This document shows, piece after piece, positions 33,784-40,678 of a stretch of DNA of 64,000 nt. A model generated the notes under the pieces. The model worked only from the letters and a program-made list of their open reading frames with translations. It was not told the DNA's origin and did no database searches. This stretch comes from Aureococcus anophagefferens (taxonomy: Eukaryota; Sar; Pelagophyceae; Pelagomonadales; Pelagomonadaceae). The translations under genes were made by a program, and so were the position numbers. Positions within the stretch are counted from its first letter, which is position 1. The number at the start of each line of letters is the position of its first letter. The DNA is taken from contig NW_008705564.1 in NCBI RefSeq assembly GCF_000186865.1, positions 2,095,978 to 2,159,977 of the forward strand, in the 5' to 3' direction.

Positions 33784-36190
33784 TCACGCCGTCCGGTTCT
33801 TGACGAAGAGCTTGGCGATCTCGCGGACCTGGTCCGCGTCGAGGGCGTAGGCCGGCGCGCCGGAGCCGTCGAAGGAGAGCAACCCCGGCGGGAGGCGGCT
33901 CGTGGAGATCGCGGGGAAGGGCTGGACGGGCGCGACCTTGAGCTGGGCGGCGTAGGGCGTCGGCCGCGCGCCCGGCGGCGGCGGGAGCGCGACGCCGGTC
34001 CAGGGCTTGGCCGTGAACGCGTAGGGCGCGACGGCGTCCGGGTCGTCGGCCGCGCAGTCCGGGCGGAAGATGCCGTGGAGCCGGCGCCGCGCGGCGTCGT
34101 AGAGGAAGCAGCGCACGGCGCGCCGCGACGCGTCGGGCGCGCGCTTCACGGCGCGGACCACGGCGAGGTGGGACGCGGGGAACGCGAAGACGCGGCGGTC
34201 GAGCGACTCGTCGGCGGCGTCGCCGGACGCGCAGCCGAAGACCAGCCCCGCGGGCAGGGGCGCATCCTGGGCCGCCGGCGCCGCGCGGGGCGTCGGCGAC
34301 GCGCCCAGCGCCGTGCGCAGGCGGCTCAGGGGGCCGATGGCCAGGACCTTGGCGCCCGTCTGGGGATCCCGGAGGTCTTTCAACGTCTCGGGCGCGGCGC
34401 CGCGGAGCGCGCCGAGCGTCGCGAAGCCCGCGCGCGCGAGGGGCGCCTCGTACTTGGCGAGGTCCGCCGCGGCGAGGAAGGCCCCCAAACCGCCGTCGCC
34501 GGCGGGCGGCGCCGGCTCCGCGAGGAAGCTCCGGAGCTTGCTGAGCGGCCCGACCTGGGCAGGAAAAGGGTGCGAAATTCCCAACTTTGGAGGCTCCTAT
34601 CTCGATCATTTTCCACTCGTTTCGGCTGATTTTGGGACGAGCGATCATCCCTCGGAGCGCTCTCGACGCGTGGATGCTTTTCCCGGAACGCGCGCGCGCG
34701 GAACACTCACGTTGAAGCGACGTTGAATCACCCTTTTCCTGCCCTGGGACCGACGGCGAGGACGCGCGCGCCCGTCGCCGCGTCGCGGAGGTCCTTGAGG
34801 CCGTCGGGCCCGAGGCGGCGCACGTCGGCGACGGACGCGACGCCGCAGGCCGCTAAACCCGCGGCGACGCGGTCGATCTCGAGCTGGCGGAGGAGCGCCG
34901 CGAGGTCCGCGGCCGGCGCGGCCGGCGGCCGCGGCGCCGCGGGTGCCGCGGGCGGCGCCGCGGCCGCGGGCGGAGGACCCCCGGCGCCGGGCAGCGCGGC
35001 GCGGATCTTCGAGAGGGGGCCGATGGTGAGCACCTTGGCGCCGCCCACGGGGTCGACGAGGTCCTTGAGGGCCCCGGCGTTCGCGGCGAGGTCCGCCACG
35101 GTCGCGAAACCGCACCGCGCGAGGCCCGGCCCGACGCGCGCGAGCCCGAGGCCCTCGAGGAAGTCCGCGAGGTCCGGCGCCGGGCTCGCGGCCCGCGCCG
35201 CCGGGCTCGCGGCCCGCGCGGCCGGCGGCGCCGCGGCCTCGGCGTTGGCCGCGGCCGTCCGGAGCTTCGACAGCGGCCCGATTGCCAGCAGCTTGCCGCC
35301 CGTCGACGGGTTCGTCAGCGCCTTGAGCTCGTCGCCGGACGCGGCCTTGACGCGCGCGAGCGTGCCGTAGCCCGCCGCGGCGAGGGCCGGGCCGTACTGG
35401 TCGAGGTTCGCGCCCGCGAGGCACTCGGCGAGCGCCGGTTCAACCGCGGCGGCGGCCGCCGGCGCCGGCTCCGCGCGCGCGGGCGGCGGCTCCGCGCGCG
35501 CGGGCGGCGCCGCGGCGGCGCCGAGGGACGCCTCGAGGGCCGGCAGGGCCGCGCGGATCTTCGAGAGCGGGCCGATGGAGAGCACCTTGGCGTTGTCGAC
35601 GGGGTCGCGGAGGTTCTTGAGCGTCTCCGGAGGCGTCGCGAGGAGCGCCGCGGCGGAGCCGATGCCGCAGGCCGCGAGCTGGGGGCCGTGGCGGCCGAGG
35701 TCGAGGCCGTCGAGGAAGGCCGCGAGGTCCGGCGCGACGGCCGCGGGCGCCGCCGCCGCCGCGGGCTCGGGCGCCGCGGGCGGAACCGGCGCCGCCGCCG
35801 CGGGCGGCACCGGCGACGCGCGCCGGTCCTTGAGGGCGCCGCGCAGCTTGCTCAGGGGGCCCACGGCGAGGACGCGCGCGCCCGTCTCCGGGTCCCGCAG
35901 GTCCTTGAGCGCGTCGCCCGGCGCCGCGAGGAGCGCGGCGAGGCTCCGCGGTCGCGAGGAAGGCCGCGAGGTCGCCGCCGTCGGCCGCCGCCGCCGGCGG
36001 CGGCGGGGACGCCGGCGGCGGGGACGCCGCGGGCGCGAGGGCCGTCGAGGCGCGCGCGCAGCGAGGGGTCTTGCCGGGCGGCGTCGCCGAGGACCGCGCG
36101 GAGCTGCGCCAGCGCGTTCGCGTCCAGGGACGCGCCCTGGAGGTAGCCCAGGCACTCGGACGCACTGAGCGACGCGACGACGGACTCCAT
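33784..36190 (-). CDS. SAM-like repeat protein with C-terminal DCD domain, frame disrupted near 5' end
   Basis: Exon 1 starts at 36190 (MESVVASLSASE), exon 2 is 34554-33784; the intron 34754-34555 is an introner. At least six SAM-like repeats of about 75 residues share LKDLRDPxTGAKVLAIGPLSKLR. The C-terminal 150 residues are a DCD (development and cell death) domain: LVFGCASG, RVFAFPASHLAVV, FLYDAARRRLHGIF, YAFTAKPW, PYAAQLKV. Between about 36060 and 35940 the coding frame moves by +1 twice and the first repeat is shortened in its middle; no convincing intron explains it, so a sequence error, repeat collapse or mutation is likely. DCD proteins in plants act in stress and cell-death responses; function here is unknown. 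Confidence 0.7.
34555..34746 (-). mobile_element. Introner element, copy 5 (in SAM/DCD gene), sense orientation
   Basis: 192 bp. On the gene strand the preceding octamer is GTCGGTCC and the following one GTCGGGCC (7 of 8). The intron is GT-AG, 200 nt, phase 0; splicing gives RVLAVGPLSKLRSF, the consensus of the host repeat. Both termini share GGGCAGGAAAAGGGTG, the longest inverted match among the copies, which suggests a young insertion. Confidence 0.9.
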
Positions 36191-38499: not shown

Positions 38500-40374
38500 C
38501 TAGAGCTGCTCGATCTCCTTCTCGCGGATCGGGTTCTTGAGGGGCGCGAAGACGGGCTCGCCCGCGCGCTCCTTGCACCCCATGTAGGCCACGAAGAGGA
38601 CGGCGAGGAGGAGCGCGACGGCGAAGGCCGCGGCGAGGCCGCCGTAGAGCGCCTCGTCGTCGTCCGACGACTTCTTCTTCGAGGAGCCCCCCTCGGTGAC
38701 CGTCTCGACGACGGTCTCGACCTCGGGACAGTTGAGGAGCCGGGCCTTCTCGAGGTCGTAGTCGAACTTGGGCGTGAGGTCGATGTCGCAGTAGGGGAGG
38801 AGCGGGTTGAAGAGCGAGTCCGTCGGGCTCTCGAAGCCGCCGAGCTCGGCCTCGATGATGGGCCCCTTGTTGACGGCGTGGACGACGGTCTTGCGGACGT
38901 CGACGTCGGCGATGTTCATGATGAGGACGTTGTTCTGCGTCGAGATGCCGTGGAGCACGTCGAACTTGTCGTCGTACTGGAGCGTCGCGTACTCGGAGGC
39001 GGCGATCACGCCCGCGCCGACGACGACGTCGAGCGACTCGTCCTGGAGCGCCGCGAGGACGGCGTCCTGGTCCGCGTAGTAGACGACGTGGAGCTCCTCG
39101 ATGTCGGGCGCGCCGCCCCAGTAGTCCGCGTGCTGGAGGAACTGGGCGCGCTCGTCGTACTCCTCGTCCGTGTCCGCGTTGGCCTTGGTGACCGCGCCGA
39201 GCTTGAAGGGCCCCGTGCCGGAGACGGCGAGCGTCCCGGCGCAGACGACCGCGGGGTCCGTGTCCGTCGCGTCGACGGTGCCCCAGCCCGTCGGGCACGA
39301 GTTGTGCGTGTAGGGGTCCGTGGCCGCGCCGTTGACGAAGGCCAGGGGCGAGAGCATGCGGAGCGGGCGGATGTAGGAGAGCTCCTGGAGGAGCGGGTAG
39401 TAGGGCGCGTCCGTGTTGAGCACGAAGACCTCGCCGTCGCAGGACCACGACGACGCGGCGCCGGGGAGGCCGTACCAGCCGTGCCAGTCGCCGCCCGAGA
39501 GGCCGCCGGCGAAGACGTGGTCGAAGTTGAGCTTGACGACGGAGCAGTCGAAGGCCGCGCCGTCGTGGAACGTGACGCCCTCGCGGAGCGTGAAGCGCCA
39601 CGTCTCGCCGCCGGACGACGTCTCCTCGGACGTCCAGGCCGTGGCCAGGCTGGCCTCGATGTTGCCGTTGGCGCCGTAGGCCACGAGGCCCTCGTAGACC
39701 CAGTTGTTCGCGAAGAACTCGTTCGGGCGGTACGAGTGCGGGTCGAGGCGGCCCACGGACGTGAAGAGGCCCGTCTGCGCGCCGGGCGCGACGGTCACGA
39801 TCTTCTCGCCGGAGACGACGGTCATCTTGTGGACCGGGTAGTCGAACTGCTGGTAGCCCGACGTGTAGCCCATGAGGCGCTGCTTGTTGACGACGGAGGG
39901 GATGCGGACGCCCCAGAGCGGCACGTGGATGACCTCGTCGTGGACCTCCGACAAGAGCGCCGTCCACTTGTCCTGGCGCGTCGCCGCGTCCATCTCCGAG
40001 AGGACGTCGTCGACGTCCGCGGCGAAGGTCTCGGGGTCGAGGTTCGTCGTGCCGCCGGACATGACGCCGTAGTGCGCCTCGTCGGGCGTCGTCCACGACG
40101 CGACGTAGGAGTGGGGGTCGTAGGGCGCGCCCCAGGTCTGGGAGAAGACGACGTCGAAGTTGCCCGCGACCATGTCCGTGTTGTAGGCGTCGCGGTCGAG
40201 GAACCGCGCCGTCGCCGTGATGCCCACCTCCGCCAAATTCGCGCGGATGTCGTCCTCGATGGCCGCGAACGTCGCGTCGCCGTCGAGGACGAGGAAGTCG
40301 AGCGTCGTCGCCTTGCAGTCCGCGGCGGCGGCCGTCGAGGCACCGGAGAGGGCGAGGGCGAGGCTGAGCTTCAT
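38500..40374 (-). CDS. NikA-like family-5 solute-binding protein, circularly permuted, membrane anchored
   Basis: 624 residues. Signal peptide (MKLSLALALSGASTAAAA). Residues about 25-183 match the C-terminal part of bacterial NikA-type SBP_bac_5 proteins: ANLAEVGI, FSQTWGAPYDPHSY, HDEVIHVPLW. Residues about 193-548 match the N-terminal part: GRLDPHSYRPNEFFANNWVYEGLV, WRFTLREGVTFHDG, YYPLLQEL, GTGPFKL, HADYWGGAPDI, then VRKTVVHAVNKGPIIEAELGG and PYCDIDLTPKFDYDLEKARLL. The order of the two parts is therefore swapped relative to the bacterial family. A Ser/Lys/Asp linker and a transmembrane helix (577-600) with a short cytoplasmic tail follow. Such proteins capture Ni2+ complexes, peptides or haem for ABC import; here it would be a surface receptor. 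Likely of bacterial ancestry. Confidence 0.88.
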   Translation of the reverse strand: MKLSLALALSGASTAAAADCKATTLDFLVLDGDATFAAIEDDIRANLAEVGITATARFLDRDAYNTDMVAGNFDVVFSQTWGAPYDPHSYVASWTTPDEAHYGVMSGGTTNLDPETFAADVDDVLSEMDAATRQDKWTALLSEVHDEVIHVPLWGVRIPSVVNKQRLMGYTSGYQQFDYPVHKMTVVSGEKIVTVAPGAQTGLFTSVGRLDPHSYRPNEFFANNWVYEGLVAYGANGNIEASLATAWTSEETSSGGETWRFTLREGVTFHDGAAFDCSVVKLNFDHVFAGGLSGGDWHGWYGLPGAASSWSCDGEVFVLNTDAPYYPLLQELSYIRPLRMLSPLAFVNGAATDPYTHNSCPTGWGTVDATDTDPAVVCAGTLAVSGTGPFKLGAVTKANADTDEEYDERAQFLQHADYWGGAPDIEELHVVYYADQDAVLAALQDESLDVVVGAGVIAASEYATLQYDDKFDVLHGISTQNNVLIMNIADVDVRKTVVHAVNKGPIIEAELGGFESPTDSLFNPLLPYCDIDLTPKFDYDLEKARLLNCPEVETVVETVTEGGSSKKKSSDDDEALYGGLAAAFAVALLLAVLFVAYMGCKERAGEPVFAPLKNPIREKEIEQL

Positions 40375-40580: not shown

Positions 40581-40678
40581 TGTAGCCCATGAGGCGCTGC
40601 TTGTTGACGACGGAGGGGATGCGGACGCCCCAGAGCGGCACGTGGATGACCTCGTCGTGGACCTCCGACAAGAGCGCC
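40581..40678 (-). repeat. 98-bp exact copy of an internal piece of the NikA-like gene
   Basis: 40581-40678 is identical to 39864-39961. On the minus strand it encodes the segment from ALLSEVHDEV to VVNKQRLMGY (residues about 138-170 of the solute-binding protein). Same orientation, 717 bp apart. Absence of any difference means recent duplication, gene conversion or misassembly. Confidence 0.95.

Follow-up and report, generated by a model that had tools for sequence, protein, structure and literature searches.

The locus

The DNA analysed here, a stretch of 64,000 nucleotides from Aureococcus anophagefferens that we call the window, carries on its minus strand a reading frame that runs from ATG to stop uninterrupted and without any N (Table 1). 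Within the assembly (49.05 Mb, 86 contigs), this is the sole full-length copy of the gene, and a 38-residue fragment of its protein is encoded upstream. A 98-bp direct repeat, exact along its length and present in two copies only in the assembly, has one copy inside the gene and the other upstream of the start codon; it looks like a recent partial duplication. Compared with the window protein, the NCBI protein P0003 (Aureococcus anophagefferens) lacks two in-frame stretches, carries two substitutions and differs at its very end; otherwise the two are equal. The absent stretches are 31 residues each and are kept by relatives, and one of them contains Cys378 and a GTG motif; this public gene model is probably wrong.

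The flanking genes are uninformative on function: the scan covered 10 of the 44 other coding stretches and returned INSIG-like (below the cut-off), cyclophilin, eRF1 and URO-D domains. At 33796-35942 on the minus strand lie repeats with weak SAM-domain matches, together with a Dev_Cell_Death domain match.

Table 1. Feature map of the permuted gene and its upstream flank, in window positions
Feature	Positions	Strand	Basis or remark
Whole coding sequence	38500-40374	-	624 aa + stop
Predicted signal peptide, residues 1-19	40318-40374	-	Hydropathy rule and helix in model; cleavage site inferred
Cys20, new N-terminus, proposed partner of Cys549	40315-40317	-	Conserved cysteine counts
C-part, residues 20-186 = NikA 333-499	39817-40317	-	Alignment and superposition
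Ligand-pocket stretch, residues 81-101	40072-40134	-	Alignment to NikA
Joined old ends, residues 187-205	39760-39816	-	NikA C-terminus to N-terminus, hardly any linker
N-part, residues 206-550 = NikA about 11-321	38725-39759	-	Superposes from residue 189 = NikA 2
Cys549, new C-terminus of fold	38728-38730	-	Conserved cysteine counts
Predicted transmembrane helix, residues 574-603	38566-38655	-	Hydropathy and helix in model
Tail motif KERAGEPVFAPL, residues 601-612, GxP[LIVM]F type	38539-38574	-	Tail comparison
Exact 98-bp copy of coding 39864-39961, outside protein	40581-40678	-	Upstream of start codon

A circularly permuted NikA-type protein

The encoded protein is a genuine circular permutation of a NikA-type protein, in which the equivalent of NikA 333-499 (residues 20-186) precedes the equivalent of NikA 2-321 (residues 189-550). 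A sequence-only reading had proposed such a permutation, and it is upheld by profile, sequence alignment, structure model and part-wise superposition; its placement of the cut also holds, at the NikA 321/333 boundary, where about 11 NikA residues are absent. The SBP_bac_5 profile (PF00496), the check which that reading had named, scores 138.7 bits, above its gathering cut-off of 32.4. The nickel_nikA equivalog model (TIGR02294) is matched in three separate stretches and stays below its cut-off (253 against 393 bits), as does the CntA model (NF047575; 167.7 against 800 bits). NikA and CntA are nevertheless the top-ranked relatives, by sequence in the profiles and by structure in the superposition, and the N-part is 29.5% identical to E. 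coli NikA over 349 residues. The linear N-to-C order of TIGR02294 is absent from the window protein by blastp, by an HMM of bacterial relatives and by structure. Order-preserving Foldseek covers only part of the fold, with a TM-score of about 0.5 against NikA chains (by target length); therefore, the C-part and the N-part were superposed on NikA separately.

Signal, anchor and tail

A signal-like start, the fold and a C-terminal hydrophobic helix together give the receptor-like build that the sequence-only reading had described, and each end of that description is borne out. By a simple hydropathy rule, the N-terminus is hydrophobic in 104 of 120 aligned proteins, and the structure model of the window protein has a helix at residues 2-12. 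The same rule finds a hydrophobic helix after the fold in 109 of the 120 and in 180 of 213 proteins of the wider set; the model of the window protein has a helix there as well. This helix is not seen in 33 of the 213. Some of these are incomplete, and among them the models from Pycnococcus and Chloropicon end right after the place of Cys549.

Tail types vary by lineage. In 47 of 180 tails, a juxtamembrane GxP[LIVM]F motif comes after a basic segment; these tails belong to pelagophytes, to Triparma and to the P0129 group, which is close to green algae. The remaining tails, compared by eye, often carry GKxxG (dinoflagellate-like) or a short Ala-containing end (diatom-like). Judged from sequence, the conserved tails suggest cytosolic partners. 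The tail motifs are possible candidates for trafficking signals.

Cysteines at the cut

Mature E. coli NikA has no cysteine, and random 12-residue stretches within the fold contain one in 12% of cases. At the cut the picture is different: in 177 of 185 proteins each new end has a cysteine nearby, one no more than 12 residues ahead of the first conserved strand and the other directly behind the last helix. In five proteins the second of these is present without the first (two of the five have no residues where the first would lie), in three both are missing, and in none is the first present without the second; with wider limits the numbers are 178, 4, 3 and 0. These counts cover 185 of 213 proteins, with 28 that are without both ends dropped and the double protein P0122 excluded. 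By column, Cys20 is cysteine in 179 and Cys549 in 181 of the 185. An alignment of 120 of the 214 family proteins gives 95 and 119 of 120, respectively, the diatom-type cysteine being displaced by a gap. Given this pattern, a Cys20-Cys549 disulphide probably bridges the cut.

Both end cysteines are lost together in P0049, P0079 and P0209 (3 of 185; Fisher p 5.4e-5, uncorrected for kinship). Only P0209, with a normal hydrophobic helix and tail, is a clean case; P0049 ends at the site, and the end of P0079 is odd. The N-part also contains Cys277, Cys312 and Cys360, each present in 185 of 185 proteins, and Cys378, present in 184. From these patterns we infer three disulphides, one of them closing the broken chain.

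A family across algae

Three protein searches, from which the best 120 of 1810, 437 and 611 hits were taken, gave 214 distinct proteins including the window protein (P0001). Compared by blastp with the two parts of E. coli NikA, divided at the position of the cut, 210 of the listed proteins read C-part then N-part, one (P0122) reads C-N-C-N and three (P0036, P0175, P0208) have no detectable C-part; thus 211 of 214 are swapped, and no listed match has the canonical order throughout. Because the searches started from permuted proteins, canonical algal relatives would rank lower and may exist beyond the list. An HMM of 40 bacterial NikA-type proteins places the C-part first in 213 of the 214, the exception being P0208 (466 aa), which has an N-part only.

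Most of the listed entries are without a source name. Those named come from the pelagophytes Aureococcus, Chrysophaeum and Chrysoreinhardia, the bolidophyte Triparma, the diatoms Bacillariaceae, Thalassiosira, Skeletonema and Coscinodiscus, the dinoflagellate Symbiodinium and the prasinophytes Pycnococcus and Chloropicon. Part of the family sequences derive from transcriptomes (MMETSP, EukProt), which here take the place of a cDNA check. Two separate genes or a gap in the assembly, the accidents that could imitate a permutation, are excluded by the open frame without N, the single full copy and the same order across the family. The permuted form is not peculiar to this alga; it is a widespread algal family, very probably that of the published ZCRP-B.

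Some members carry additions. P0070 (981 aa) has a Peripla_BP_2 domain (PF01497, precomputed match) ahead of the permuted unit, that is, two binding folds in one chain, and by eye no second signal-like stretch between them. P0051 (944 aa) and P0059 (723 aa) have, also by eye, long coiled-coil-like additions before or after the permuted fold.

Tandem relatives and the origin of the permutation

P0122 (1320 aa) consists of two units, and its residues 343-859 match the bacterial NikA model 53-539 in one piece (308.7 bits). By the same HMM, a C-part (163-323) lies before this canonical match and an N-part (879-1229) after it. The seam is a CxxxC stretch in which the end and start cysteines almost meet. 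Over about 511 residues the two units do not differ at all, their only differences being at the ends; this tandem could therefore have arisen very recently or be in part a product of assembly. At the start of P0005, the end of an N-part runs straight into a C-part (residues 3-208 = model 318-536 by HMM), and this N-part end differs from that of its own second copy. P0055 has a similar seam by sequence, across which the HMM match does not extend. The tandem forms suggest that the new ends could be joined through a few residues. In P0122 the seam recreates a canonical NikA, and the permutation thus likely arose by duplication followed by trimming.

Two short peptide patterns, run against 84,980 prokaryote species represented by a single genome each, matched 63 stretches, and 42 loci encode a relative. 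Together with E. coli NikA these make 43: 41 read N-part then C-part in one reading frame, L016 is split over two frames and L047 is cut off after the N-part. The bacterial homologues with the same permutation that the sequence-only reading had thought worth seeking did not appear in any of the 42 loci, a scan that distant permuted forms could escape, being based on the two patterns. As far as these loci go, a bacterial origin of the permutation is rejected. The best identity to the bacterial relatives is 35% over about 350 residues, or 40% over 147. In viral contigs, 27 stretches matched a pattern and none encodes a relative.

A tree of 16 algal rows, re-ordered to the canonical arrangement for alignment, and 40 bacterial rows places the algal proteins in one group on a long branch (support 100/100). 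A single origin of the permutation is the simplest reading. The algal group stands beside no single bacterial group that would point to a donor lineage, in a bacterial sample biased by the two patterns. Inside the algal group, the Triparma row P0078 joins the prasinophyte rows P0123, P0134 and P0129 (98/99), not diatoms; thus transfer between algae, or old duplicates, likely lies behind this grouping.

The ligand pocket

Pocket residues are numbered here as in mature E. coli NikA, and we take the positions of W100, R137, W398, Y402, H98, M27 and R97 to line the NikA pocket. W100, R137 and Y402 (W300, R336 and Y85 in the window protein) are kept in 120 of 120 aligned proteins, W398 (W81) in 116 and H98 in 119. 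M27 is replaced by Phe in 119 of 120, and R97 by Trp or Tyr in 100. At the place of H416, 115 of 120 have Glu (E99), followed two places later by His (H101) in 82; no strictly conserved histidine substitutes for H416. Among 40 bacterial relatives, the same position holds His in 21, Glu in 11, Gln in 7 and Asn in 1. As read from the alignment, the pocket is NikA-like, yet it differs from that of NikA. PDB entry 3qim names His416 in its title as essential for nickel uptake.

Partners in the assembly

No match to the permease family PF00528 (BPD_transp_1) was found in the assembly by a six-frame search that is blind to introns and in which organelle genomes are perhaps absent; all 14 control genomes were positive. 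Counted by exon, there are 11 ZIP transporter and 22 cobW/COG0523-type matches. Peripla_BP_2 has one weak match. Self-made nicotianamine, considered as the chelate, was set aside: the genome gave no match to nicotianamine synthase (NAS, PF03059), in a search whose control is weak, with 1 of 14 genomes positive.

The assembly holds a second SBP_bac_5 gene in canonical order (L005 2670-4433, minus strand; G000:C23 230538-231649), with a signal-like start and a hydrophobic C-terminal end. Its closest model is Opp5A_nikA, of which 249-470 is matched in one piece, and against E. coli NikA it reaches only E 6e-10 over 91 residues. It is apparently broken by an intron or a frame change. This paralogue shares the family and the hydrophobic C-terminal end with the permuted protein and is not itself permuted.

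Discussion

How marine algae obtain zinc and cobalt from picomolar concentrations is an unsolved question (Kellogg et al. 2022; PMC9010474). We consider the best explanation of the gene, and one that is somewhat more likely than not, to be an ABC-independent, membrane-tethered receptor for a scarce divalent metal or its chelate, built on a permuted NikA closed by a disulphide. We propose the following. The protein would be exported and stay anchored to the cell surface through its C-terminal helix, with the new ends, in the second lobe, facing the membrane. The Cys20-Cys549 disulphide would seal the cut, so that the two-lobe clamp may operate as in NikA. The predicted ligand of the clamp is a divalent metal, Zn2+ or Co2+ being the most likely, which would probably be bound as a small chelate; the pocket keeps W100, R137, W398 and Y402 of NikA and has Glu for His416. 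No ABC permease would be needed: the loaded protein may pass its metal to ZIP-type transporters, or it may be internalised by means of its tail. As to its history, a single round of head-to-tail duplication and trimming presumably reshaped a bacterial NikA-like gene, either before it spread among algae or in the course of that spread.

The same fold and build could instead serve nickel capture, as the sequence-only reading had tentatively suggested, in a receptor that feeds urease and has Ni2+ or a nickel-histidine complex as its cargo. The closest named family is indeed NikA, most aromatic and arginine pocket residues are retained, and Glu at the H416 place occurs in 11 of 40 bacterial relatives too, so that Glu alone decides little. 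However, in 115 of the 120 algal proteins Glu stands where NikA has His416, the score of 253 bits falls short of the equivalog cut-off of 393, and the reported diatom relatives answer to Zn and Co (PMC9010474). On these grounds nickel appears the weaker reading beside zinc or cobalt, and we regard the nickel receptor as unlikely. About equally unlikely is a receptor for a ligand other than a transition metal, such as a peptide, an opine or an organic nutrient. The ligand range of SBP_bac_5 is wide, and dipeptide, oligopeptide, opine and glutathione binders also align; against this, NikA and CntA rank at the top by both sequence and structure, and the reported relatives respond to Zn and Co (PMC9010474). 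An artefact of assembly or gene prediction, or a tandem gene read out of register, would have the adjoining 98-bp repeat and the existence of tandem relatives in its favour, but we give it practically no credence in view of a single open frame without N, one full copy only in the genome, the same order in 211 of 214 listed proteins from many sources, some transcriptome-derived, and the cysteines that adjoin both new ends.

Returning to the tethered zinc or cobalt receptor, a larger proposal can be made, whose chances we put as evenly balanced. Through one ancient permutation, the binding protein of a bacterial importer would have become a metal receptor that is purely eukaryotic and independent of ABC partners, with the anchor on the other lobe, a disulphide replacing the broken chain, the ABC partner lost and trafficking taken on by cytosolic tails whose conserved motifs differ by lineage. 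This receptor would then have spread through diatoms, pelagophytes, bolidophytes, dinoflagellates and prasinophytes; the tandems would show the path, and ZCRP-B would be the permuted protein. If the ZCRP-B family is indeed a permuted, disulphide-closed NikA, linear alignments and the topology need revision. The metal site would then be mappable residue by residue onto NikA structures, and clear mutants would be possible at Cys20, Cys549, E99, H101 and the tail. More generally, the family offers a naturally occurring case of circular permutation in a large two-lobe binding protein, with tandem relatives that resemble evolutionary intermediates.

Comparison with known systems

ZCRP-B (Zn/Co Responsive Protein B) was described from diatoms by Kellogg et al. 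2022 as a protein that responds to Zn and Co, rising at low Zn or low Co and located at the plasma membrane by YFP (PMC9010474). It is 30.5% identical to E. coli NikA (E 7e-49), has one predicted transmembrane span, placed near the N-terminus, and is mostly extracellular; relatives of the ZCRP proteins were reported in Bacillariophyceae, Dinophyceae and Prymnesiophyceae (PMC9010474). Its proposed role is that of a surface metal ligand, perhaps feeding ZIP transporters or endocytosed, and it was put forward as an indicator of zinc stress in the ocean (PMC9010474). The construct for the P. tricornutum protein is named PT-YFP-49168 (PMC9010474). Cobalt uptake by an overexpressor was not significantly different from that of the wild type, which the authors blame on a Zn-rich medium and missing partners (PMC9010474).

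The likeness of ZCRP-B to the algal family is close: a NikA-like protein, about 30% identical to E. coli NikA, with one membrane span and with diatom and dinoflagellate relatives. Among 17 picked diatom-type permuted members (6 diatom-named), identity to the E. coli NikA N-part is 29-34%, with pairwise E values of 5e-40 to 1e-55 that are not on the scale of PMC9010474. Because the permuted diatom-type members reach this identity, and the canonical paralogue only E 6e-10 over 91 residues, ZCRP-B very probably is the permuted family, judging by sequence. Two published findings count against this: the predicted span near the N-terminus, where the window protein has a signal-like stretch, its hydrophobic helix being C-terminal, and the lack of a significant effect of overexpression on Co uptake (PMC9010474). 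The string 'permut' has 0 occurrences in the main text of PMC9010474, and the cut cysteines, the tandem forms and the pelagophyte and green-algal members do not appear in the sections of it that were consulted. No earlier description of a permuted NikA was found in the PMC literature searched. The kind of protein is thus already known, whereas the permutation, the cut cysteines and the tandem forms appear undescribed in that literature.

ISIP2a/phytotransferrin resembles the proposed receptor by description only, being an algal surface protein of metal starvation with one transmembrane span and uptake mediated by endocytosis (PMC9010474). It has no significant sequence similarity to ZCRP-B and takes Fe3+, not Zn or Co (PMC9010474).

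Of the solved proteins, NikA (TIGR02294) is the nearest, sharing the fold with both lobes and the residues W100, R137, W398, Y402, H98 and H20. Next come structures of CntA (NF047575), the staphylopine-metal binding protein, which has the same fold and a different order of the halves. CntA binds Ni and Co complexes. NikA itself differs from the algal protein in its genomic company, the algal assembly showing no NikB/C-type permease match. In the protein, the differences are the swapped halves, Glu for His416, the conserved cysteines and the C-terminal hydrophobic helix.
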